Virus record (IMG/VR): IMGVR_UViG_3300030060_005114
Span: 4,290-25,864 of that record
Direction: 5' to 3' (one strand)
DNA: 21,575 nucleotides
Origin: a virus
The notes under the pieces are model-generated. The model worked only from the letters and a program-made list of their open reading frames with translations, ran no database searches and was not told the DNA's origin. This document shows positions 1,412 to 15,761 of this stretch, one piece after another. Made by a program: the position numbers and the translations under genes. Each line of letters opens with the position of its first letter. Position 1 is the stretch's first letter.

Positions 1412-3052
1412 ATGGCAATAAACACAGACATTTTTTTAGGAAGCGGAGCGAACTTGGCCTTAGTGCCGGAAACTGATTTAATATTTCAAATAGATGCAAG
1501 CGAAAGTAGTGATTTAACAAATCTACACGCTGTTTCAGGCTTTTTGAATAGTTATTCCTTTGTTGATGATATTTATGTTGGGTGCGTTGTTGATTTTTTC
1601 AATGCTGATGTATCTCTTACCGTTCCTGCTTCAACTCACATAATTACAAAAAATGACAGCGACTCAATCACAATTAGCCCTAGTATCGCAAGCACAGTTA
1701 CATTAGCATCTGATGATAGTGATTTTGTAATAATTAGAAGTTATGGTGCGCCATGTGTAGGGCAAAAAAATGGAACTGTTAAAAGATTAAACGCTGATAA
1801 CTGGCTAGGAATATTAGAATCATCTACATTCCCTAATATAGAAACAGAAGTAAAACAACTGAATATTGGTCTAGGAACAACTAGAAACATGGAATATCAA
1901 TACAAAGGTATGGAAACTGCTAGCGGTGGTAATTTAGGATATGTTTGTAATCACGGTGCATTTTTGTATTATGCTTTAGGTTCTTGTAGCCATGTTAAAT
2001 GCACTACTACTGCCCCTAATCCTTCTAATCATCTTCTTGCCGGAACAGCAGGAGATGTATATATTGACAATGGAGATGCCGGTGGTGGAGAGAATACAAC
2101 ACAAACTCATTTAAGTCAAGGGCCAATTTTCTATAAGACGGGTTATGGTGCGACAGGAGTAAAAGGAGTAGCACTTACCCCACCTCTTCTTTATAATTTA
2201 GATTTGACCGCAAATGTAGAATTATTGTCAAGAACAACAACCGACGCTACTTCTCTTACAAACCCAATTACTTACACCTTTACAGAATCAAATGGAGAAG
2301 AGTTACCTTCATTTTCACTTGAACAAAGTCTAAGTAAACTTGAATCAAGTAACACATTTATCACAGGAGATACTGGAATAGCAACAGAATCACATAACTT
2401 TGTTAGAATCGCTAGAGGTAATAGAGTTAATACTCTAACATTAACTGCTAATGAAAATGAAGAGTTAAAAATGACTATGGATTTAAACAGTAGAACAGTT
2501 CACAAACTTAAGACTAATGAAAGTTATGAAGCGAGAGGTGGTGCGGGTGACGATAATAATAAATTATTCAACCTTAATGATACAACCGATGATGCTGAAT
2601 TCTTAGAACCGTTTTTCTTTTCATCCGGTTCTTTCACAATTTTTGGTGAAGAATTCTTAAAGATAACAAATTTATCTCTAACTATCAATAATAACATACA
2701 AGACAAAAGATTTGTTGGGATTGGTAATAAGCAAATAAAAGATGGTATTCCTGCAAATAGAAACTATGAATTGACATTTACTGCTTTAGTTACAGATAAC
2801 AGGCTATTCGAAGAATTATTCGACCAAGCAGAACAAACAGGAACTACACTTACTGCTGACAATGGCTTAATTCAACTTCTTTTTACAAAAGGAAATACGG
2901 AGCAAATAAAATTACAATTCAAAAACTACATGATAGGTTCGGCTAATTATACAATACCGGATGATAAAAGTTCTATTACTGTCGAAGCCACAGTAATGCC
3001 AAGAAGTTTACACCTATGCGAAGTTACAACCCACTGGGTATTGCAGGGGTGA
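1412..3052 (+). CDS. Major tail tube protein with large domain insertions
   Basis: Predicted to polymerise into the tail tube through which DNA passes. The C-terminal part (about 430-546) has a tail-tube pattern: a strand around 'YELTFTALVTD', a helix 'RLFEELFDQAEQTG', then 'IKLQFKNYMIGSANYTIPDD' and a final strand. Tube proteins are usually 150-300 residues, so 546 is long. Residues about 45-115 hold a beta module (YVGCVVDF, then PASTHIITK, then ITISP) resembling modules in the fibre/hub protein at 7284-15761. Residues 160-230 are glycine- and cysteine-rich (three cysteines within 30 residues). GGGGAG lies about 10 bases upstream of the ATG. Position between tail-completion and chaperone/tape-measure genes agrees with the call. 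It could instead be a tube protein fused to a surface-decoration domain. Confidence 0.6.
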   Translation: MAINTDIFLGSGANLALVPETDLIFQIDASESSDLTNLHAVSGFLNSYSFVDDIYVGCVVDFFNADVSLTVPASTHIITKNDSDSITISPSIASTVTLASDDSDFVIIRSYGAPCVGQKNGTVKRLNADNWLGILESSTFPNIETEVKQLNIGLGTTRNMEYQYKGMETASGGNLGYVCNHGAFLYYALGSCSHVKCTTTAPNPSNHLLAGTAGDVYIDNGDAGGGENTTQTHLSQGPIFYKTGYGATGVKGVALTPPLLYNLDLTANVELLSRTTTDATSLTNPITYTFTESNGEELPSFSLEQSLSKLESSNTFITGDTGIATESHNFVRIARGNRVNTLTLTANENEELKMTMDLNSRTVHKLKTNESYEARGGAGDDNNKLFNLNDTTDDAEFLEPFFFSSGSFTIFGEEFLKITNLSLTINNNIQDKRFVGIGNKQIKDGIPANRNYELTFTALVTDNRLFEELFDQAEQTGTTLTADNGLIQLLFTKGNTEQIKLQFKNYMIGSANYTIPDDKSSITVEATVMPRSLHLCEVTTHWVLQG

Positions 3053-3057
3053 TTAAT

Positions 3058-3174
3058 TTGGATAAGTATGAAAAAAGAAAGTTAGCAGAAGAACGCCTAA
3101 AAAAAGAAAAGGCGGATGCTAAGAAAAAGACTAAGGCTAAGGAGGAGAAGAAAAAAACTCCAAAGGCCGAGTAA
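3058..3174 (+). CDS. Lysine-rich 38-residue peptide
   Basis: A short frame starting at TTG 5 bases after the tail-tube stop, with GGGGTGATT directly upstream as a strong ribosome binding site that overlaps the tail-tube stop codon. The product is almost entirely charged: about 16 lysines and 8 glutamates in 38 residues, with KKKTKAKEEKKKTP near the end. It should form a single helix or be disordered and could bind nucleic acid or act as a scaffold. I recognise no family. The good start site and the otherwise unexplained 176-base space between tail-tube and chaperone genes support a real gene. Low-complexity composition leaves some doubt. Confidence 0.55.
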   Translation: MDKYEKRKLAEERLKKEKADAKKKTKAKEEKKKTPKAE

Positions 3175-3228: not shown

Positions 3229-3594
3229 ATGACTGAAAAGAAAGTAATAAGTGATAAGAAAGTGCTATTTGCACTACAAGAGCCTACGCTACATTATGTT
3301 AAAGTAGCACCCGACCAAGAAGAATATCTAAAAGTGTGGGTAAAAGAACCCACATGGCTAGAGGCTGAAAGGGCCATGAATAGCATAATGAAATTAGATG
3401 CTAAGACACAGAATGTAGATATTGATATTAACGCTATGTATCGCTATATGGTCGAGAATTTCATTTCAAAAACAGAACCATCACTCTCAACAATTGATAT
3501 GCTAAGGCTAAGTCCTTATGTTGGCAATCAATTAAAAGAAATTTTACCAAATCCTATGAATGTTTTACAGGAGGATGAAGAAAAAAACGAATGA
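3229..3594 (+). CDS. Tail assembly chaperone, upstream frame (lambda gpG-like)
   Basis: Predicted cytoplasmic chaperone that coats the tape-measure protein while the tail tube is built. The protein is 121 residues, acidic and helical towards its end, and is encoded between the tail-tube and tape-measure genes, where tailed viruses place the G/GT pair. The ATG at 3229 is chosen over an in-frame TTG at 3205 because GGTGGAT lies just before it. The last codons contain A AAA AAC (3582-3588) in the zero frame, followed after 6 bases by a stem, so part of the ribosomes should shift -1 and make a 191-residue fusion with the next gene. The next gene's ATG also overlaps this stop (ATGA), so separate translation is possible. 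Sequence similarity to gpG is not obvious; the call rests on order and on the frameshift signal. Confidence 0.7.
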   Translation: MTEKKVISDKKVLFALQEPTLHYVKVAPDQEEYLKVWVKEPTWLEAERAMNSIMKLDAKTQNVDIDINAMYRYMVENFISKTEPSLSTIDMLRLSPYVGNQLKEILPNPMNVLQEDEEKNE

Positions 3595-3632
3595 TTGAGG
3601 GTGCTATTAGAGGAAAAAAAACTAGCCCTCAA
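3582..3632 (+). promoter_or_regulatory. Programmed -1 ribosomal frameshift signal
   Basis: The heptamer A AAA AAC lies at 3582-3588 with zero-frame codons AAA and AAC, the X XXY YYZ form needed for tandem -1 slippage. A 6-base spacer (3589-3594, containing the zero-frame TGA) follows. Then a stem forms between 3595-3601 (TTGAGGG) plus 3604-3606 (CTA) and 3623-3625 (TAG) plus 3626-3632 (CCCTCAA): 10 base pairs, one 2-base bulge and a 16-base loop. After slippage reading continues as CGA and then directly into the frame starting at 3591. Heptamer, frame, spacer length and stem all match canonical -1 signals, and the location in the tail-assembly chaperone pair is where such shifts are known in tailed phages. 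Confidence 0.85.
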
Positions 3633-3803
3633 ACAGCATTCTTAATCATGACTTATACTTTGGCTTCGGCTTTATCTATAAGTCCTTTAGAAATATACAA
3701 AATGCCATCTAGTCTAGTGATGGATTTGTTGTCAGTTCATTTTAATATGGAAAAGATTAAACATGAGGAATTAGAGAAAATAAAACGACAAGCAGGTAAT
3801 TGA
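3591..3803 (+). CDS. Tail assembly chaperone, downstream frame (lambda gpT-like extension)
   Basis: A 70-residue helical segment in the -1 frame relative to the upstream chaperone gene. It could be translated from its own ATG at 3591 (ATGA overlap) or as the C-terminal 70 residues of a 191-residue fusion made by -1 frameshifting at 3582-3588. In lambda the gpGT extension recruits the tail-tube protein to the chaperone-coated tape measure; the same task is likely here. The end of the protein is basic and helical (EKIKHEELEKIKRQ). The next gene, the tape-measure protein, begins 1 base after its stop. No strong separate ribosome binding site lies before 3591, which favours the fusion as its main product. 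Confidence 0.7.
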   Translation: MIEGAIRGKKTSPQTAFLIMTYTLASALSISPLEIYKMPSSLVMDLLSVHFNMEKIKHEELEKIKRQAGN

Positions 3804-3804
3804 C

Positions 3805-5526
3805 ATGGCCGATGATGAAGTCACCAAAATGGTTAATAATCTGGGTGACTTAAATTCAGTAACTTTCAAAGCAGGTTTAGAATTTCAAGGACTTACTAAG
3901 CGTCTTATTACAATGTCCGATAGTATATCGGGCGCAGGTAAAAAATGGACTATTTTTGCTAGGCTTGTTTCCGGTAGTCCGCTATGGAGATTGCAGAATA
4001 AAGTAAGGGCGTTTGTTGATTCGTTGGCTTTGATGGAGCAGGCTTCCAAAGATAATAGCAAAGCCCAAAAAGAAGCAAATGAGCGTGTGATAAATCTAGT
4101 TCAGTCTAACGAGAAGATGAGAAAGGAATTTAGAAGAATTAGCAACGAAAATCAACTTGTGATTAAAATAAATGAAAAATTTAGCGAAGGGCTAATGACA
4201 CAAAGAGAAAGAATAAATCAATTAAGAAAAATACAAAAATCACATAACGATGACCAACAAAATGCAATAAAAGGCACTTTGGCTTATAATAAAGCGGTAT
4301 TAACTGGCATTAGTCCGGTAATGGCATATGCTAAAGGATTAGAAGAGTTGAATGATAAAGCAAAAGCAACTGAAAAAGTATTTAAAGCGGCAAAACAAGA
4401 CGCTTTGATTCAAGATGCCATGATTGGAGACGATAAAACATTCAAAGAAAGAATGAAGAGTGTGGACAAAGCAGTAAAAACAATCAAAAAAAGAAGAAAG
4501 GAAGAAATTGGTTTCGGTAAAATGTTTCAAGATGTAGGGGATTTCTTTCTTGGAACGAGGGGCAAAAGAAAAAAAGAAGGTATGCCGGAAACAGGAAATA
4601 TATTTCAACGATTCGGTAATAAAATAGATGTCATAACAAAAATACAAAGGATGCGTATAAAATACGAAGATTTCATGACAAAGTTTGCTAAGTTTTCAAA
4701 AGGAATATTAAATTATTTATTTAAAACTTTAATATTTATTACTATGGCTATTTTGGGATTCTTTATTTTACTAAAAGTTGCTCAAAACGCTTATGAGTTT
4801 TTAGAAGAATTAGGAGCAATAGAGCAGATAATTGAGATAGGGCGGATGTTAATGGAAGCGGCTAGTTTAATATTTGGAATGATAGTCGCTTTAGTAGAAA
4901 ATGATTTAGATACTTTGTTAGAAAAGGGAGGACAACTAGCAGGAGTATTGTTAGATATTGCAGTAACAACGGGAATCGTAGCACTGAAAGCAATATACGC
5001 TCTAGGAGTTTCTTTGTTCTATACTTTAATTGATTTAGGAATACGCTTTATGAAAGGAGACTTTAACGATATTTTATTTAAAGTCGCAAAGTTCTTACTT
5101 ATAGCACTAGGGGCAAAAATAATAATTGGCGCAATGATACAAGTAGCGGCAATAGCGGCATTGCCGCTTTTGATATTGGGCGTAGCATTCTTACTCATGG
5201 CGGCATTTTTCAAGAGAGCAAAAGGAATGCTACCGTTTATGGCAGAAGGTGGTGTTTCTGATGGTGGTATAACTGTCGTTGGAGAAAAAGGGCCGGAATT
5301 AGTTAATCTACCAAAAGGGGCTAGAGTTCATAGTAATGCTGATAGTAAGAAAATGCTAGCAGGTTCACAAAACAACAATAGTAGTGTATTCAATAATACT
5401 GTCAATGTTACGATAAACTCTAAAGATACATCGGATGCTGAACTAAGAAGAATAGCCGATAAAATAAGTAATATGGTGACAAATAAAATACAACGAAGTG
5501 TATCTTCCAGTGGATTTGTGAGGTAA
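3805..5526 (+). CDS. Tape measure protein
   Basis: Sets tail length and is ejected with the DNA. In the 573-residue protein, residues 1-300 are charged and largely helical, including a coiled-coil-like stretch about 70-150. Three hydrophobic stretches follow, at about 299-325, 380-415 and 425-470, each long enough to cross a membrane. Residues 491-510 carry VVGEKGPELVNLPKGARVHS, the 'GExGPExv.LPxGa.V' signature found near the C-terminus of many tape-measure proteins. A serine/asparagine-rich linker and a charged end complete it. At roughly 0.15 nm per residue, the known scaling for siphoviruses, the tail would be about 85 nm. Position right after the chaperone pair confirms the call. Confidence 0.9.
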   Translation: MADDEVTKMVNNLGDLNSVTFKAGLEFQGLTKRLITMSDSISGAGKKWTIFARLVSGSPLWRLQNKVRAFVDSLALMEQASKDNSKAQKEANERVINLVQSNEKMRKEFRRISNENQLVIKINEKFSEGLMTQRERINQLRKIQKSHNDDQQNAIKGTLAYNKAVLTGISPVMAYAKGLEELNDKAKATEKVFKAAKQDALIQDAMIGDDKTFKERMKSVDKAVKTIKKRRKEEIGFGKMFQDVGDFFLGTRGKRKKEGMPETGNIFQRFGNKIDVITKIQRMRIKYEDFMTKFAKFSKGILNYLFKTLIFITMAILGFFILLKVAQNAYEFLEELGAIEQIIEIGRMLMEAASLIFGMIVALVENDLDTLLEKGGQLAGVLLDIAVTTGIVALKAIYALGVSLFYTLIDLGIRFMKGDFNDILFKVAKFLLIALGAKIIIGAMIQVAAIAALPLLILGVAFLLMAAFFKRAKGMLPFMAEGGVSDGGITVVGEKGPELVNLPKGARVHSNADSKKMLAGSQNNNSSVFNNTVNVTINSKDTSDAELRRIADKISNMVTNKIQRSVSSSGFVR

Positions 5527-6171: not shown

Positions 6172-7287
6172 ATGTATGATACACTTATAGGAAAACAGCG
6201 TGGTTTGGTATTCCCTGTGATGTGTAATGGTCATGTTAGAATAGATTATAGCGATAATGTTCCTAGCACTTTAGATAATCAAGCATACGGCATATTTGAA
6301 CATACAGGAGATTTTACTTTTGAAGCCATACTTACTCCATATGACATAAATGGTTTTGGTCAATATTCTACAACAGCGAGGCCAACTATTACAGCATCAA
6401 AAAAGGTAATGCCTACAGCAACTAACGCTAATGCTAGTAGTAATAATTTTCAAAGCAACGAATATATGCCAATCGCTAATAGACTAGTGCATGAGATGAA
6501 TATATTTTCTAGTAGTAACCTAACCATATCAATAGTTAATGCTACTTCACATAATGAAAATCAACCTGCTGAATATAAGATAAAAGCCACAATTAAATTA
6601 GGCTCGACAGACTATACAGTGACGACAGATAATACTGTAATTAATGCAACTTCAGGTTTTGGTTGGTTTTATACTGCTGATACACTAGAAGGGTTTGATA
6701 AAAATGGTAGGATAACTCATGTTCTTGGTGGAACTACAGATTCTAATAGCGTTGGTGTAACTATTCACATAGATGACACTGCTAAATTTCATGCGGGGCA
6801 AGAGATTTTCATAAGGGATGGTTTTAATTTTACATCTTTAGGAACTATAACTAGTAATAACTTTACTAGTGGTTCTAGTGGAAGTTTTGAACTTGATGAT
6901 TTAAGCATACCAATAACTTCAGGAACTAAAATTTTTATTCCTGCATACAAAGATGCTACTTACATCAATAACCAATTTCATATTGCTTGTGTCTATAATG
7001 AAAATAGCAAAGAAGTTAGATTATTTTTAGATGGTATATTAGTAAAAAGACAGACAATATCAACAAGCGACACATTCTCTATGGCACAAGAAGATTATTT
7101 TATTGGTGCGTCTAGTAACAATGGAACGGGTGCGGCTGAAAGTGCTATTGCCAATAAGCAATTTATGGGGGAGTTGCATGAAATGTCTATGGTAAAAACA
7201 ACTAAAAAACAATTTTTCATAAATAATTTATTACCAAATTTTAGTGATACATTATTTTATTTTAGATTCGAGGAGGTAGATGAATGA
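6172..7287 (+). CDS. LamG/concanavalin A-like tail protein
   Basis: A 371-residue protein with features of the LamG jelly-roll fold, which often binds sugars. The N-terminus holds GDFTFEAILTPYDI, matching the 'ftieaWvkp' strand. About residues 266-300 contain 'NQFHIACVYNENSKEVRLFLDG', the 'whhvAvtydg..vrLYvDG' core, and about 331-345 contain FMGELHEMSMVKTT, matching 'g.iddvrvyn'. Between the halves (about 175-262) lies an inserted beta module with VTIHIDDTAKFHAGQEIFI, related to repeats in the next gene. Likely a surface tail protein that touches the host envelope. GGTGAT precedes the ATG and overlaps the previous stop (TAG). The gene ends in an ATGA overlap with the hub/fibre gene. Confidence 0.65.
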   Translation: MYDTLIGKQRGLVFPVMCNGHVRIDYSDNVPSTLDNQAYGIFEHTGDFTFEAILTPYDINGFGQYSTTARPTITASKKVMPTATNANASSNNFQSNEYMPIANRLVHEMNIFSSSNLTISIVNATSHNENQPAEYKIKATIKLGSTDYTVTTDNTVINATSGFGWFYTADTLEGFDKNGRITHVLGGTTDSNSVGVTIHIDDTAKFHAGQEIFIRDGFNFTSLGTITSNNFTSGSSGSFELDDLSIPITSGTKIFIPAYKDATYINNQFHIACVYNENSKEVRLFLDGILVKRQTISTSDTFSMAQEDYFIGASSNNGTGAAESAIANKQFMGELHEMSMVKTTKKQFFINNLLPNFSDTLFYFRFEEVDE

Positions 7288-10200
7288 CAGAAGTTTCTAC
7301 TTTGGTTGCGCTAAGTAGGCCAACCGCTACGGTAACTAAATCTACAACAACCGCTACATTGGGTAGTGAGACTTTGCCAATTAGCGATACTAGTAATATT
7401 CTAATAGGTATGAAAGTAAGTGGAACTAACATAGAAGATAACACAATAGTTACTGCAATTACAACTAATACTAATATAACTATGAGTAAAGAAGCAAGTG
7501 ATAATGGGGCAACAGGAACATTAACATTTACTAAAACAGCGTTTGATACTCCAACCAATCCCGAACTTTGTGTAAGCACTACCTCTACATCAGTAGATAC
7601 CTTTGGAGTTGTGGTAGCAGAAGAAGGTTCGGGGACTATTACTCTAACTTCTGTCGGTAGAAGCACTTTAGCAAATTGTAACGCTACACAAAATAGTAAT
7701 GTAGTTACTCTATCAAGCGGCAATACCGATTCTTTGTATGTTGGTCAAAGCGTCAATGGAACAGGGTTTACTGGAACACAGGCAAGAATAGAAAGAATAA
7801 TTTCTTCTACTGAATTTGCACTAACAGAAAAAGCAAGTGCCAATGCTACAAATGCAACATATGTTTTAGGATTAGAACATAGAAATTTAGCAGTAACAGA
7901 AGGTAATAGAATAAAATGTTTTAATGATTTTACAAGCACAGGAGTTAGACTTAACAGCATAAATTTAGAAACAACCCATTTGTTTGTTATGATACATTCA
8001 GATGACGAAAGTAAACATCATTTTGCTAAGGTAACAGAACTGTTTGATGACGATGTGACAGAAGATTCATTTGAGTTTAGGCCAAAATTAGGAAATGAAA
8101 TAGGTAAAGATGTAAAGTTTAAACTATTTTCTACTCCTATTTCTAACAGCATTACAGAAGTGGCGGTGGGCTTAGGAATAAAAAGCACTTTATCGAGTTC
8201 TGTTTCTTTGGCAAGACCTTTGTTTTATTTCTTTGATGAAAACTTAGATAAAATAAATGAATTAGACCACAATAAAAAATATAGTTTATTTTACAGCGAG
8301 TTAGATTTTATTAGCGGTGCTACTGACATATTATCGGCAACTAGTTTTTTTACTACATCACCGGATTTTGGCACTGACATAATAGACTATGGCAGACACT
8401 CTTTGAAAACTAGACTAATTGATAATTTAAAAAATCAAGACAATCCCACCACGCACACTAGTAATGAAGGATATACAACATTATTAGATTATACTCCATT
8501 TTCAAGAGATGCTTGTTTTACAAACGCTAGAAGAGATGCAAATGATGAAGTTACTGATTCCGCAAGTCAAGATTATACTGGCCCATACAGATATTTGTCG
8601 TATGGTTTTTCAAAAGACAAAGCGAATATAGCATACAATGTATTAGACCAAATATTGTATGAATCAATGGGAGCAAAGGGAACTTTGGCAGAACTTAAAT
8701 TAGCCGACCCGTTTAGAATACTAGTAAAAAAAATAGGAGACGAAGAATCTCTTAGAATTAGACATCAACTTTTTAGAGGAAATTTCAATGAATTCAAATC
8801 AATAGGGGCAAAAATAACTTCTAATACTGGTGGCAACACTTATGCTACAAATACTAACCATGATTTAGGCAGTTATCTAAATGTTGGGGATGAAGTTAGG
8901 GTTGGCACAAGAATAGTCATAGTTCAAAGTATAGCATCTATTAGTGGTAAAACTCAAAGCATTACTTTTAGAAGTGAAAATAGATTAGAAACTGAATCAA
9001 TATTCACCACAGGCTCTTACACTTTAGCAAATGACAGTATTCTTGAAAGAAGGTCTTACAATAAAAAAGATAAGACACTACTTACAGATTTTCCGCTAGT
9101 GACAAACAGAAACAGCACTTTACACATAAAATTCTTTTCTAAAGAATTTGCGTTTTTACATGCTACTGTATCAGCAGTAGATGTAAATAAAAAATTACTA
9201 ACTCTATCTTTTTCTGATAAAGCATATTTTGATTCGGATGGTAGCACAAGCACAGAAGAGGCTTATCATTCTCAAGGAAATATGTTGGATTATATGTCGG
9301 GCCAATATGCTATTCTTATGGAAAAGATAACAGGTGAAATAGAAAAAATAGAAAATTTCAAAGAAGATGGTTTAACACAAATGCAATTAGTAGGTAGAAG
9401 TAATATCAGAAAATTAATTTCTCCTGTAATTAACAAAAACACCCTGTTTTCACTTGATGCAATTTATTCAACACAAAGCCCTTATAATAAATTAACAACT
9501 TTAGGTGGCTCGGCTTCATGTAATTTTAGTAGTAAAAAAGTTCATTCAGTTAAGGCAGTATATGATGCCGCAACAGTAGGGGATATAATACACATAAAAC
9601 ATTCCACAGGCACTATGTCTTTTGCCGGCAAAGTTGCTTCTAAGGGCGCAAGTTCGGAAACTGCTTCTTTTGTCTTTTTGGATAATACTATCACTAATGT
9701 TACTGTAAGCGATTATGAAGTTGGTCAGCGAGTAGTGCATGTTCCGGTAACATTAGGTTCTTCAATTATTCCCGATGATACTTTTGTAACTGAAATAGAC
9801 ACTAGCGCAAATAAAATAACTTTGAGCCAAAATGCTACTAGTAACACTACTTCTACTGAAACATTAGAAAGGCCGGCTATAACTTTAGAAGATTTTTCAA
9901 GAGCAGAAACTAAAGTATTGCCTTCTAATAATACCACCTTATTCAAAGAATCAAATAAAAATTATATGTTAAATAAAGCCTTAGCAACTAATCCTTTAGT
10001 AGATTCAACCACTAGTCTAAGTGGTGCATCTAACAAGGGTCTATTTTTTAATTCCGGTGTTAAGATTACATCAACAGGAGAGGAAAGTGATAATTTAGTT
10101 GGTAGTAGTGGTAGTGTTCACGAAAACGCTGTTGGTTATCTTATTAGTGATGTGGCTAACATAAAAGATGATTCACACTTTCAAGCAATATTAGAAGATG

Positions 10201-13200
10201 AAGATAGTAATGCAGAATCGTTTGATACTATAAATACACTATTAGATTTTGAAATATTAGAAAATAAATCTTTGGGAGATGGCAGTGGCTCTATTGTAAA
10301 AATAGCACCCTACAACCCTTTGACTTTAGGTAGAGTGGACATAAATTATGCTAACACCCAAACAACCACTTTTTCTAAAACCAATTTAGGCAAAACAACA
10401 ACAGACTTCTCTATCGCTAAAAAGTTCATAGAAGTTGATAGTGAATTTGCATTGTCGGCCTTTAATCACATTAGAGGAGAAAAAAACTTACACAGCAAGC
10501 CGGTATATGTAAACGGAAAATTATTGGGTAAAGTAATACAAGTAGAAAAAAACTACCACATCAGTTTAAGCACAAGTGTAACTAGCGGTTCGGCAACAGC
10601 AACTTTAGACACTACTTCTTTATCAGTCGGTATGGAAATAGAAAATGGAAGTAATGCACATATACCAAATGGAACAACTATCGTATCTATTCAAAGTAAT
10701 ACAAGTTTAACAATGAGTGCTAATGCAACTGGAACTAGTTCCAATAGTGCAACTTTCGTTTTACCGACAACACAAAGTAGGATATATTTAGATAAATCAA
10801 TTGGATATGTTAGTTTAAGTGGAGATGCTAATTCAAATAAAATAATAACAAACTTACCATCTACTGAAAAAATATATGTTGGTATGAAAATAACATCATC
10901 TTCATTTAGTGCTACTGCCACTGTTGAATCCATAGATAGTATTAGTCAAGTAACTATGAGCGAGAATGCTACAGCGAGTGCAGTCGGAGAAACAATGGTG
11001 TTTTATTTACCAAGCGGAACAGTCGTAGATAAATTAGAAGGTCATCATAATCAAGATTCTACTAGAGAAAGTTCAAAACTTACACATGAGTTAAATTTAT
11101 TAAACGCTGGTCACTTACACGGTGCGAAAAATATATCTTTAATTCACCCTAAGTTACAAACAGGCAACACTTACAATAAAACTAGTGTGTTAGATTTTAG
11201 ATTAAAGGGGGCGCAACCATTTCATAGAAGGGTAAACCATAGTGGGGCGAATGCTAGTAACAAAGCACAAAACGCTGGAGGTGCTGATAAATTAGATGAG
11301 TTTGGAACATATCAATCTAATTTTGGTGCATCCATTTATAACTTAATAAATATAGAAAAGGGTAACTACAATAAATCAAAGGCACTTTTATTTGATGATG
11401 TTAATTTACTTTTTTATACGGAAACTCTAAGCAAGATAAAATATTATGCTAGCGCATACAGATATAATGCAGGTTATTATACTGATGGATTCTTACAAAA
11501 TAATATTATAGGAACTGATATTTGCGGTATGAATATTGTTGGACAATCATTAATAGAGACATTTTCCGGTAGTCCGTATATAGAATTTAAATTTGAGAAT
11601 CTTATAGGTGGAGACTCCAATAGCCATTTTCACGATACCGCTAGAATAGGGCAAAAGATAGTTGCGACGGGAATACCGGATAATACCTTTATAGGAAACA
11701 CAATAGGTATGGCATTTGGAAATTCCAATACAACCGGAGAAGTTAGATTAGTAGATTTAGATAACAGTGCTGTAAATGCAACAGCAACTAGTAGTGGTCT
11801 TATAAATGCTAAATTCTTTGAGTTCGATAATAAAAAACTAATAGAGAGTAGAGGTTTTACTAATAGTTTAGGTGATAGATTGTTTGAGCCTAAGACATTA
11901 GAGAGTAAGAGCAAACAACGATATGTGTATAATGGAACAACCACTATTAGTTCATCGGGTGATTTTTTCAAGGAGGGTTTTTCTCCATTTGTGTTATATT
12001 CTCCTAATCCGTTTTTAATTACTCAAACCGTTGGCTCAACAAATGTTAGAAGTCCTTTTCAAATAAAAGATAACTTTATACAAATTGACCCTAAAGTTGC
12101 TAGAATGTTCTTATTCAGTAATAGTGATTTATTACCATATTCTTCTACAAGAAAGGATAGCCTATTAAATAAAAATAAAACCAGACAAATAAACAACTAT
12201 TCTTTATTGTCAATAAATGATACAAGAAAGACTACTCACTCACAACTAAAAGATGATGTTATTGGAACTACTCTTTCAATAACAAACCTAGATACAGATT
12301 ATCAAAATCATCAAATAATTTCAATCAATAAAGAAATAAACTCGCTAAAAAGATTTAGTTTAATGCGACTTACTGAAGTGGTTTATGATTTTTGTTTTAA
12401 TCAATTTGACCCCGAAAATATACCAAGTAAAGAAAAACATATTGGAACTATGAACTATCCTGCTTATACTAGAGAAGCCGTTGAAGATAGTAGTAGTAAC
12501 CACCTTCATATTTTATCAGTAAGTGGTAAAACAATAAGCACCGGTAAGCATCCGAATACTGCCGCCACTGCTAATGGATTAACAGCAGGCGATATTATAG
12601 TAGACAGAGCAGGAAGATATATTGGAGTTGTTGCTTCTGTTGGCACTAATACTATTGTATTACAGGATAATGCACATAAAACCGACCTTGATACTAGTTC
12701 TCAAGCCGACCACTATCAACCTAGACTGAATACTAGAGGAGGAACAACACCCAACGGTTCTTTTATGCCTTTATATTACATCACAATCGAAAGTCAAAAT
12801 GCATCAAGCGACTCTAATCAAGGCGTTGCTTCATTAAGAGGGTATAATACAGATGGCAATTTTACTGAATTAGGAAATATAAATTTGCTTCAAATGGCAA
12901 CCATGAGAGGCATTTCCGGTGGAAGTTATGTTACTGGAACAAGAGGTGATGCAGAAGCAGGTTACGGAACTGATGATTCTAGCGAAGGCGATACTACTTT
13001 TAGTAGTGCAAAAAGCATTACCCAAATGGGAAATGTTACCATAGAAGAGGAGGATGTTAATATAATACTACCCGTAGAGTTAGATTTTAATTCAAAATTG
13101 GGTAGTTTCATTGGTTCGGGTGGCACACAAGGAAATTTAAATTTGTCATTCTTTCATCAACCGTTTCCTGTATTTGCTCATTATGCTCGAATAGGTGATG

Positions 13201-15761
13201 AAGTAGGTTTGGGAGTTTTAGGTAGTAATTCTGCTCGTATGGGTGGTAGTAACTCTACTCTACTATCGAGGTCTATACCTAGAATGCTTCAAAATTTTAT
13301 TCCTATATTTTTAGATAGATATGATATTGATGGCGGTCAAGGGGCTAATGTAGACATAGGAATGGCGGGTAATAAAATAATAAATCATAGAGGATTATAC
13401 TTGAACTCTAGTAGTGCAAACACTGATGAAATAAGAATAGGAGCAGTTATGGGTAGCATAAAAAGCGATAACACATTAATTAATACCGGCTTACATAATA
13501 GAGCATCTTTAAGAGATGAACCTAATTCATTCAACGGCTATAATGATGCGGCTGATGGGGTATTTGCAGGATTCAAGCCAACTTTAAAAATTGATGTGGG
13601 ATACGAAGTTGCCGCTACATTTAATGATACAGCCTCTACTAAAGCGTTTTTTACTGTAACCGAAGGTAATGTTAGTGCTACTAGCACCGCAGGTTTTATT
13701 GGTGATTTTATCAATGATGGAGTAAATGCTGACCTAATTTCCCATTATGTTTATTCACCGACTGGTAAAGTTCCTAAATTTACTAGAACATATCAAGTCG
13801 AAACTTCTGCTAATCCTGACCGAGTTCTTATGAATGCCAATGCTACTAGTGCTGGAACAGAAACGGTTAGGTTGAGTAGGCATTATGTTTGTGAAGAAAC
13901 TGCAACAAATGGAACTACCGTTCATACTTTAGCGTTTAAAGACCATTTAGTAGAAGAAGGAGAAACAATACGAAGTGAATTTGACGGTTATCCTAGAGCA
14001 GACAACCCTTTTTGGTTAAGTTTTGTTGATTTAACAGGATGTTATTTGGTTTCGGAAGAAGGTAATCAATATACTGATGGCGGAGCAGTAGAAGACTTGG
14101 CTACTGCTGGAACTACCGGAGTAGCGGGTTCTCATGGATGGGGTTCAAGTAAAAACCAACGAAGATTTACTATGAATGGAACTACACCGGCAAATATTCT
14201 TTATGTAATTTCACATGAAATAGACACTACCCAACAAGGTAGAACACATATATTAACAGTAAGTGGTAATATGCCTTCTGCCTCTCCTAAATGGGATGGA
14301 GGAGATACTTTTAACAGATTCAAATTCTTTAGAATTATGCAACCTAATCATACTTGTTTTTATAATTTCAGTCCTAAAAAAATAAGATTAAATGAAATGT
14401 CTTCTAAATACACTAAGAAACCAAGACAAGATTCTACTTACGGAAAAATAAATTCTTTTCATTTGAATAACAAACAAACTAATTCTAGGGAACTAGAAGG
14501 AGAAAACGAGGCTGTATTATCTATGTATGTTGTTGTTGATTCCGACTCACAAACAACAGAAGATAACTTAGTTATAACAAATCCAACAAGCATGAGAGGT
14601 AATATTCTTACTGAAACTAATTTTGAAATGAACATAAGTGACGGTGAAAATAACAATTTAACTAATGTAAGAATAGTAGATTCTGGTGATGACATTGGGT
14701 TTTATTTAGAATTAGAAGAACAAAAAGAAATGTTAGGAGTTACCTCTATTTCAGAAACAGCAGAAATAACCATAGAAGAATCTGACAATATAGGAAAGAG
14801 GGCTTTGATAGGTTCTGTTGTTTCAGTATGCAGGGAAGTAGAAGAATTAATTGATGAAATTTTAGAAGAAAATGACATACCCTTTGATTTAGCAAAAGAT
14901 GAAAGTGGTGTTAGGACTAGCCCCTATCCTTATTTTGTTGCTCCTAATTTTAGAGGAGTAGATTTATTTTCAGCAATAAAGTTTTTGATGATTAAAAAGA
15001 ATCAAACCTTGATAGAAAATAATGGAGTATTTGAGATAAAAAATGATGATGACTCTAATTTATTTACGCAAATAATATTTTCTACTGCAAATGATAATAC
15101 AAGAATATACTCTTATAGTAGAGAAAAAAGTAGTTTTGATTTTTATAATGAAATAATAGTATTTGGGAAAAGTCATAAAGCAATAAGAAAAGAACTCAAA
15201 AGCATAAAGAAAAAGGGTAGGAAGACTTTACAAATTTTTGAAAATGAATTGACAACACAACACGATGTTGATGAAAGAGCGTCAGAATTATTAAAAATAC
15301 ACAACGATAATAGTTTTGGTTTAAAACTAACAGTGGGTCATAAAGGTATATCGCAACTTAGAGTTGGAGACATAGTTACTGTAGAAATACCTGAAGAAAA
15401 TATAACTAGAAGTGAGTTTATTGTTTTAGAAATACAACACAATCTTACAGGAACTGTGGACTTGGAACTAGGAAGTTACACCAAAGGCTTAGAAGACCGA
15501 TTTGCTGAATTACAAATAGAGAGCAGGGCAGTAAATAATAAAATAAGAGAGAATGCTTTTGACGATTCTCAAATTAGTTTTGATTTCTTAAATGGTATAA
15601 ATGTAAACACCATAAAAATCTTAGCAAGGAAAAAAACAGTTCCAAGTGGCTCGTTCACTTTGGGAACAAATAGTAGTGACTCGGAAACGCTAAATACAAA
15701 TACCAATGCATTGAATATAGGAGTGACTACATTTACTACACTTTTGGAGGAAGAATTTTGA
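7284..15761 (+). CDS. Giant fused tail fibre / baseplate hub protein (2825 residues)
   Basis: By far the largest gene in the window. The C-terminal part (about 2490-2760) looks like a baseplate hub/tail-tip protein: an unusual 'VSVCREVEELIDEILEEN' helix, a 'FRGVDLFSAIKFLMIKKN' segment typical of hub domains, then FDFYNEIIVFGK and 'LRVGDIVTVEIPEE', the strand pattern of gp27/gpD-type hubs. The N-terminal 2300 residues are beta-rich, with few cysteines. They contain at least five copies of a roughly 60-70 residue module (about 13-83, 124-197, 800-862, 1094-1163, 1174-1245) built as VGM.I....I...T.V..I.S...I.TMS.NAT, and a possible sixth at about 1440-1510. The start has GGAGGT 7 bases upstream and overlaps the LamG gene by 4 bases. 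The protein probably forms the tail tip and side fibres in one chain. Confidence 0.7.
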   Translation: MTEVSTLVALSRPTATVTKSTTTATLGSETLPISDTSNILIGMKVSGTNIEDNTIVTAITTNTNITMSKEASDNGATGTLTFTKTAFDTPTNPELCVSTTSTSVDTFGVVVAEEGSGTITLTSVGRSTLANCNATQNSNVVTLSSGNTDSLYVGQSVNGTGFTGTQARIERIISSTEFALTEKASANATNATYVLGLEHRNLAVTEGNRIKCFNDFTSTGVRLNSINLETTHLFVMIHSDDESKHHFAKVTELFDDDVTEDSFEFRPKLGNEIGKDVKFKLFSTPISNSITEVAVGLGIKSTLSSSVSLARPLFYFFDENLDKINELDHNKKYSLFYSELDFISGATDILSATSFFTTSPDFGTDIIDYGRHSLKTRLIDNLKNQDNPTTHTSNEGYTTLLDYTPFSRDACFTNARRDANDEVTDSASQDYTGPYRYLSYGFSKDKANIAYNVLDQILYESMGAKGTLAELKLADPFRILVKKIGDEESLRIRHQLFRGNFNEFKSIGAKITSNTGGNTYATNTNHDLGSYLNVGDEVRVGTRIVIVQSIASISGKTQSITFRSENRLETESIFTTGSYTLANDSILERRSYNKKDKTLLTDFPLVTNRNSTLHIKFFSKEFAFLHATVSAVDVNKKLLTLSFSDKAYFDSDGSTSTEEAYHSQGNMLDYMSGQYAILMEKITGEIEKIENFKEDGLTQMQLVGRSNIRKLISPVINKNTLFSLDAIYSTQSPYNKLTTLGGSASCNFSSKKVHSVKAVYDAATVGDIIHIKHSTGTMSFAGKVASKGASSETASFVFLDNTITNVTVSDYEVGQRVVHVPVTLGSSIIPDDTFVTEIDTSANKITLSQNATSNTTSTETLERPAITLEDFSRAETKVLPSNNTTLFKESNKNYMLNKALATNPLVDSTTSLSGASNKGLFFNSGVKITSTGEESDNLVGSSGSVHENAVGYLISDVANIKDDSHFQAILEDEDSNAESFDTINTLLDFEILENKSLGDGSGSIVKIAPYNPLTLGRVDINYANTQTTTFSKTNLGKTTTDFSIAKKFIEVDSEFALSAFNHIRGEKNLHSKPVYVNGKLLGKVIQVEKNYHISLSTSVTSGSATATLDTTSLSVGMEIENGSNAHIPNGTTIVSIQSNTSLTMSANATGTSSNSATFVLPTTQSRIYLDKSIGYVSLSGDANSNKIITNLPSTEKIYVGMKITSSSFSATATVESIDSISQVTMSENATASAVGETMVFYLPSGTVVDKLEGHHNQDSTRESSKLTHELNLLNAGHLHGAKNISLIHPKLQTGNTYNKTSVLDFRLKGAQPFHRRVNHSGANASNKAQNAGGADKLDEFGTYQSNFGASIYNLINIEKGNYNKSKALLFDDVNLLFYTETLSKIKYYASAYRYNAGYYTDGFLQNNIIGTDICGMNIVGQSLIETFSGSPYIEFKFENLIGGDSNSHFHDTARIGQKIVATGIPDNTFIGNTIGMAFGNSNTTGEVRLVDLDNSAVNATATSSGLINAKFFEFDNKKLIESRGFTNSLGDRLFEPKTLESKSKQRYVYNGTTTISSSGDFFKEGFSPFVLYSPNPFLITQTVGSTNVRSPFQIKDNFIQIDPKVARMFLFSNSDLLPYSSTRKDSLLNKNKTRQINNYSLLSINDTRKTTHSQLKDDVIGTTLSITNLDTDYQNHQIISINKEINSLKRFSLMRLTEVVYDFCFNQFDPENIPSKEKHIGTMNYPAYTREAVEDSSSNHLHILSVSGKTISTGKHPNTAATANGLTAGDIIVDRAGRYIGVVASVGTNTIVLQDNAHKTDLDTSSQADHYQPRLNTRGGTTPNGSFMPLYYITIESQNASSDSNQGVASLRGYNTDGNFTELGNINLLQMATMRGISGGSYVTGTRGDAEAGYGTDDSSEGDTTFSSAKSITQMGNVTIEEEDVNIILPVELDFNSKLGSFIGSGGTQGNLNLSFFHQPFPVFAHYARIGDEVGLGVLGSNSARMGGSNSTLLSRSIPRMLQNFIPIFLDRYDIDGGQGANVDIGMAGNKIINHRGLYLNSSSANTDEIRIGAVMGSIKSDNTLINTGLHNRASLRDEPNSFNGYNDAADGVFAGFKPTLKIDVGYEVAATFNDTASTKAFFTVTEGNVSATSTAGFIGDFINDGVNADLISHYVYSPTGKVPKFTRTYQVETSANPDRVLMNANATSAGTETVRLSRHYVCEETATNGTTVHTLAFKDHLVEEGETIRSEFDGYPRADNPFWLSFVDLTGCYLVSEEGNQYTDGGAVEDLATAGTTGVAGSHGWGSSKNQRRFTMNGTTPANILYVISHEIDTTQQGRTHILTVSGNMPSASPKWDGGDTFNRFKFFRIMQPNHTCFYNFSPKKIRLNEMSSKYTKKPRQDSTYGKINSFHLNNKQTNSRELEGENEAVLSMYVVVDSDSQTTEDNLVITNPTSMRGNILTETNFEMNISDGENNNLTNVRIVDSGDDIGFYLELEEQKEMLGVTSISETAEITIEESDNIGKRALIGSVVSVCREVEELIDEILEENDIPFDLAKDESGVRTSPYPYFVAPNFRGVDLFSAIKFLMIKKNQTLIENNGVFEIKNDDDSNLFTQIIFSTANDNTRIYSYSREKSSFDFYNEIIVFGKSHKAIRKELKSIKKKGRKTLQIFENELTTQHDVDERASELLKIHNDNSFGLKLTVGHKGISQLRVGDIVTVEIPEENITRSEFIVLEIQHNLTGTVDLELGSYTKGLEDRFAELQIESRAVNNKIRENAFDDSQISFDFLNGINVNTIKILARKKTVPSGSFTLGTNSSDSETLNTNTNALNIGVTTFTTLLEEEF
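10563..10772 (+). repeat. Fibre beta module, copy 4 (protein-level repeat)
   Basis: Encodes residues about 1094-1163 of the giant tail protein. It carries SVGMEI, then TTIVSIQSN and LTMSANATG, the same order as the copy that starts 30 bases downstream. The similarity is in protein, not in long identical DNA, so the duplication is old. Confidence 0.65.
10803..11018 (+). repeat. Fibre beta module, copy 5 (protein-level repeat)
   Basis: Encodes residues about 1174-1245 of the giant tail protein with YVGMKI, then TVESIDSI and VTMSENATA, aligned in order with the preceding copy. The two copies are adjacent, a likely tandem duplication. Such modules are known as strand-rich units in phage fibres. 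Confidence 0.65.

Follow-up and report, generated by a model that had tools for sequence, protein, structure and literature searches.

The -1 frameshift signal of Escherichia coli dnaX is tripartite, consisting of a Shine-Dalgarno (SD)-like element, the slippery heptamer A_AAA_AAG, and a stem-loop. Tailed phages differ in their use of -1, -2, or +1 shifts (PMC5009743). The chaperones gpG and gpGT of phage lambda are produced by a -1 shift, as summarized in PMC5009743 with reference to Levin 1993 and Xu 2004, 2013, and 2014, and the tail chaperone of phage Mu by a -2 frameshift (PMC5009743). Outside the tailed phages, Trichomonas vaginalis virus 1 (TVV1) uses a -2 shift and TVV2-4 use a -1 shift (PMC5009743). 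As for archaeal viruses, -1 shifts have been predicted in the G/GT genes of the haloviruses HVTV-1, HCTV-1, HCTV-2, and HCTV-5 (Pietila 2013; Sencilo 2013; as summarized in PMC5009743 and PMC8211752) and of Hardycor1 (PMC7911831). The heptamers listed for these G/GT genes in the summary of PMC5009743 are A_AAA_AAC in HCTV-2, G_GGA_AAC in HCTV-1, and G_GGA_AAG in HCTV-5. The fucA1 gene of Saccharolobus solfataricus (A_AAA_AAT) is the only experimentally demonstrated case of archaeal -1 programmed ribosomal frameshifting (PMC8211752). The initial annotation of the locus described here held that such frameshifting is little characterized in archaeal viruses, which is correct for experimentally established cases but overlooks the predictions in haloviruses. 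A literature search on frameshifting in magroviruses turned up a single paper, and the sole mention of frameshifting that we found in it was a reference title on chlD.

We analyzed a stretch of viral DNA of 21,575 nucleotides (the window; positions 4,290 to 25,864 of record IMGVR_UViG_3300030060_005114). With a probability of roughly 0.93, it carries a three-part signal for programmed -1 ribosomal frameshifting, through which a single start gives rise to two chaperones of tail assembly: G (121 aa) and, in smaller amounts, a G-T fusion (GT, 191 aa). The G gene, located on the plus strand like the elements of the signal, the T extension, and the tail tube and tape measure genes, spans 3229-3594 including its TGA stop codon (3592-3594). 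Its zero frame ends with GAA AAA AAC GAA TGA, which places A_AAA_AAC at 3582-3588 in the slippery register, with AAA and AAC as zero-frame codons just as the initial annotation had read them. From the heptamer, the -1 frame reads AAA AAA CGA ATG ATT and continues into the ORF at 3591-3803, so that the extension joined to G, the T domain (3588-3803), is open to 3803. Residues 1-120 of G (3229-3588) and 71 codons from 3588 add up to 191 residues, confirming the length previously given for a fusion through the -1 frame into the downstream gene. The 150 relatives, the predicted fold, and the gene order strongly support the reading of the locus as a chaperone (G/GT) with -1 frameshifting. The elements of the signal, their conservation, and the covariation, as well as the fold and the gene order, come directly from the analysis.

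The 121-aa G protein matches PHROG 25860, a tail assembly chaperone, with an E-value of 1.6e-5. A BFVD search with its AlphaFold2 model, built from a 20-sequence alignment (pLDDT 81.5), retrieved at E 2e-7 the chaperone of Haloarcula hispanica tailed virus 2 and at E 5e-4 those of two Bacillus phages. The best match in the PDB, the HK97 chaperone, was not significant (E 1.3), and a tblastn search of G against phage records gave no match. Nor did three structural-region proteins of the related genome G002 find named relatives in the phage collection. The G/GT locus resides at the position expected for it, between the upstream tail tube gene (1412-3052; Pfam PF18906, Phage_tube_2, E 2e-11) and the tape measure gene directly downstream of G/T (3805-5526; phrog_19914, tail length tape measure, E 1e-9). 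The PHROG match, the predicted fold, and the gene order agree with the earlier designation of G as a tail-assembly chaperone. The known domain covers only residues 272-527 of the 546-residue tail tube protein, which has about 270 extra N-terminal residues. A short Lys/Glu-rich ORF (3049-3174), whose GTG start overlaps the tail tube stop codon, lies between the tail tube and chaperone genes. The tail region also includes a 2825-aa ORF (7284-15761), probably encoding a tail tip or host-binding protein, for which the first 500 residues had no Pfam match.

Eight viral-contig scans and one genome-contig scan yielded 150 distinct related sequences, with protein identities as low as about 50%. Every one of the 150 has a canonical zero-frame heptamer near the end of G, at the place homologous to 3582-3588. 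The heptamers fall into three classes: A_AAA_AAN (A_AAA_AAC in 86 sequences, A_AAA_AAG in 24, of which 12 are the -2 type described below, and A_AAA_AAA in five), G_GGA_AAN (G_GGA_AAC in 25, G_GGA_AAG in four, and G_GGA_AAA in three), and T_TTA_AAA (three). Because the heptamers were searched by pattern, agreement inside them, including the preceding base, is definitional, and the real evidence is that every relative has one there. Elsewhere in G, a canonical heptamer occurs at any one position in at most 28 of 141 sequences. Across the 150 relatives, the neighboring codons vary while the heptamer stays. The codon before or at the heptamer start is of at least 12 kinds (GAA, CAA, GGA, GCA, GTA, TCA; ACG, ATG, AAG, GAG, GCG, TCG; GAT), with its first two bases changing freely. 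As a plain word, A_AAA_AAC is not rare in the A-rich window (12 copies, compared with 14 expected), and zero-frame heptamers of the X_XXY_YYZ form number 37 per 6053 codons; the weight of the heptamer therefore rests on the comparison among relatives, in which its conservation (150 of 150) far exceeds chance. G and T are fused in one frame in none of the 150 sequences, and no relative keeping both genes has lost the heptamer, so that the heptamer of the initial annotation stands. In the most distant relatives (L370, L371, and L373), T_TTA_AAA is located 25 nt before the stop codon, and the -1 frame is closed just upstream of the heptamer.

The initial annotation overlooked an internal SD-like element, AGGAGGAT, at 3569-3576, in which GGAGG begins 12 nt before the heptamer. 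The CAG and GAG codons that form this element are the two strongest synonymous constraints of 112 G columns in the A-type relatives. Glutamate in this column is encoded by GAG in 77 of 78 sequences, compared with 24% GAG among the Glu codons of the gene. GGAGG, GAGGA, AGGAG, or GGGGA is found upstream of the heptamer in 108/109 A-type and 29/32 G-type sequences, nearly always at 11-13 nt before it. Ordinary gene starts of the same virus bear GGAGG/GGTGAT-like sequences, which makes anti-SD pairing plausible for the host of this virus. By analogy with the bacterial dnaX gene, the SD-like element would stimulate slippage.

Downstream of the heptamer, the minimum free energy (MFE) fold is a two-part stem of -23.9 kcal/mol (z -5.9), in which a 15-bp outer stem (3591-3605 with 3635-3649) encloses a 4-bp inner stem (3610-3613 with 3627-3630). 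The outermost predicted pair, 3591-3649, follows the heptamer after 2 nt of the spacer (3589-3593), and the first pair that more than 80% of the relatives retain, 3594-3646, follows after 5 nt. This stem replaces the one of the initial annotation, TTGAGGG/CCCTCAA, the letters of which are present but evaluate to only -8.3 kcal/mol, compared with -22.7 kcal/mol for the conserved stem alone. The pairs of the earlier stem form in 47% of cases in 50 divergent relatives, against 46% in shuffled columns, which refutes it. As RNAalifold found no consensus structure for all A-type sequences, we tested the conserved stem by register scanning and pair counting. In a gap-free T-frame alignment of 95 A-type sequences, the conserved register forms 10.9 of 14 pairs, compared with at most 7.7 in any other register. 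Among 50 sequences differing by more than 15%, 76.4% of the cells are paired in this register and 41-53% when it is slid, 115 cells are changed on both sides compared with 42-53, and the covariation score is 0.378 compared with 0.15-0.17. Against synonymous-codon shuffles, z falls below -2 for 34 of the 40 nonredundant sequences with A_AAA_AAC, and the extra fold stability is confined to the immediate 3' side of the heptamer, with none in the windows further up- or downstream. With 5 nt to the conserved stem core, the downstream structure lies at the distance expected for -1 frameshifting (5-9 nt), although not clearly so in the main G_GGA_AAC clade (L078 type; e.g., L078:5350-5480). In this clade, the compact stem is missing downstream of the heptamer (mean z about 0). 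A larger structure, a hairpin of some 95 nt, is weakly suggested in its place; its z values lie between 0 and -4.3, most of them under -2, and it shows no covariation. The class of heptamer and the class of structure go hand in hand.

In the mechanism we propose, the ribosome would pause with Lys-tRNA on AAA in the P site and Asn-tRNA on AAC in the A site, held at the rear by pairing between AGGAGGAT and the 16S anti-SD and at the front by the 15-bp plus 4-bp stem. Both tRNAs could then slip back by one base and pair anew on AAA AAA, after which CGA ATG ATT and the rest of T would be decoded. We infer that such slippage occurs, at an efficiency that would make GT the scarcer product. By analogy with lambda, G would coat the tape measure protein, and T would recruit the tail tube.

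Twelve distinct relatives (L041, L045, L048, L049, L051, L055, L056, L071, L072, L090, L326, and L339) have one base fewer 3' of the heptamer than the -1 type, which shortens the spacer by exactly 1 nt and places T in the -2/+1 frame. Their sequence reads GAA AAA AAG GAT GAT TAA, with TAG or TGA as the stop codon in some and with GAC AAT TAA in L090. Their T domain is clearly homologous to that of the -1 type, and a -1 shift would hit TGA at once in all but L090. They keep the SD-like element and the A_AAA_AAG heptamer, as well as the stem, which forms 12.3 of 14 pairs in an unchanged register. The GAA AAA AAG sequence permits a two-base slip in which both tRNAs re-pair on AAA AAA, and the predicted -2 junction, EKKRMI, is as long as the EKNRMI junction of the -1 type. 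According to PMC7618472, which cites Lin 2012 on this point, -2 frameshifting is optimal with a spacer 1-2 nt shorter than that for -1, for all stimulators tested. The lost base would both move T into the -2 frame and shorten the spacer by a base that favors -2, so that the indel would partly repair itself. A DNA tree built without the signal region has five changes between the -1 and -2 types, at least four of them forced by supported branches; these counts do not separate gains from losses, and part of the changes could stem from recombination among members of the group. We consider it reasonably probable that this single group, made up of probable archaeal viruses, alternates between -1 and -2 frameshifting at its tail-chaperone signal through the loss of one base between an unchanged A_AAA_AAR heptamer and an unchanged stem. 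The frame of T in the 12 relatives would also be reached by a +1 shift, with the P-site Lys-tRNA moving forward from AAA to AAA; the sequence permits both, and a +1 shift was proposed for the halovirus HSTV-2 (PMC8211752). The GAA codon preceding AAA AAG in all 12 is common to most -1 types as well and therefore does not discriminate between +1 and -2. However, the SD-like element, A_AAA_AAG, and downstream stem kept by these relatives are stimulators of backward shifts, and the A-site codon is neither slow nor a stop codon. Moreover, a spacer shorter by exactly 1 nt is the condition favoring -2 over -1 in the account of PMC7618472, and the +1 product, EKRMI, would be one residue shorter, whereas a -2 shift leaves the product as long as in the -1 type. 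A +1 shift is thus unlikely in our judgment, even though it retains some weight.

Returning to the -1 shift in the window, T might instead be a protein of its own, translated through termination-reinitiation or internal initiation from the ATG at 3591, which overlaps the G stop codon as ATGA and might use the upstream AGGAGGAT as its Shine-Dalgarno sequence. The first 12 codons of T, however, contain no ATG in 81/128 relatives and none of ATG, GTG, or TTG in 43/128, which rules out reinitiation as a mechanism common to all. Unlike the ATG, the heptamer is kept without exception, the SD-like element is fixed in position relative to the heptamer, and the 16 nt from GGAGG to the ATG are too far for normal initiation, all of which makes separate synthesis very improbable. 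The run of seven A residues in the A_AAA_AAC members of this A-rich genome could also invite transcriptional slippage, producing mixed mRNAs translated by an unshifted ribosome, yet the G_GGA_AAC, G_GGA_AAG, and T_TTA_AAA homologues have no run longer than four, and some members have A6 only (GGA, GCA, or GTA followed by AAA AAC). As a conserved SD-like element and stem suit ribosomes and are needless for a polymerase slipping on a homopolymer, we give slippage of the polymerase hardly any credence. An assembly or sequencing error within a single intact gene would be conceivable for metagenomic contigs with an indel near an A run, but we deem it practically negligible: the 150 distinct sequences come from many samples, all with separate frames and none fused, and the base that distinguishes the -1 and -2 types is lost 3' of the heptamer, outside the A run.

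The initial annotation had also presented the DNA as that of a probable archaeal virus; for the 27-kb record containing the window, such an origin is not proven, but probable from its relatives. One relative, G010 (the record of L062), has a 295-aa ORF with a TFIIB domain that scores above the cut-off of Pfam. Another, G002 (the 95-kb record of L012), carries genes for PolB, an RFC-like clamp-loader, an ERCC4 nuclease, an ATP-dependent ligase, and Cpn60, a set much like the description of Aoguangviridae/magroviruses (PMC10768690). Pfam searches for PCNA_N and PriS gave no match, and MCM gave a weak one below the cut-off. Searches for MCM, PCNA, TFIIB, and PriS in the window's own record found nothing, and three related records contained no tRNAs. 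In view of the genes present in the relatives, with PCNA_N and PriS not found and MCM weak, we regard the assignment of the record as archaeal and magrovirus-like as probable, not proven. The single match of the genome-contig scan, L288 (NZMJ01000011.1), a 10.5-kb contig in a MAG of the bacterium Maricaulis, encodes the same viral chaperone with G_GGA_AAC TGA. It is most likely a mis-binned viral contig and is uninformative on the host.

The family offers more than 100 natural variants of one signal in three heptamer classes, in viruses with probable archaeal hosts. Its SD-like element would put to the test a stimulation of frameshifting by anti-SD pairing in archaea, and matched natural -1/-2 pairs would allow a test of the mRNA-tension idea, in which a shorter spacer favors -2.

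Compared with the known systems, the window's site alone is a signal of a kind already predicted in haloviruses, including A_AAA_AAC. The haloarchaeal tailed viruses share with it the chaperone gene before the tape measure gene, the predicted -1 shift, and the archaeal host, which is probable here. Yet the window's virus belongs to another group (marine, magrovirus-like), and its G has no tblastn match to phage records. In the window's family, an SD-like element and a covarying stem emerge from comparison. Lambda gpG/gpGT is alike in gene order, in its two products, and in a -1 shift near the end of G, but differs in host domain, heptamer, and stimulators, and we found no sequence similarity. 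E. coli dnaX is alike in the upstream SD-like element, the A_AAA_AAN heptamer, and the 3' stem; its function, gene, and host are different, and in the window's family A_AAA_AAC is commoner than A_AAA_AAG. The fucA1 gene resembles the locus in its A-rich heptamer, putative stem, and archaeal setting, but encodes a cellular enzyme, has the two-ORF form in few strains, and has no known conserved two-product role. Phage Mu is comparable in using the -2 frame for a tail chaperone, and the TVVs in having relatives that differ between -1 and -2. In contrast to both, the window's group alternates repeatedly between -1 and -2 among close relatives, with the same heptamer and a one-base spacer change. 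It is because of the three-part signal established by comparison, together with this repeated switching among close relatives, that we count the family as a new form of a known kind of signal.
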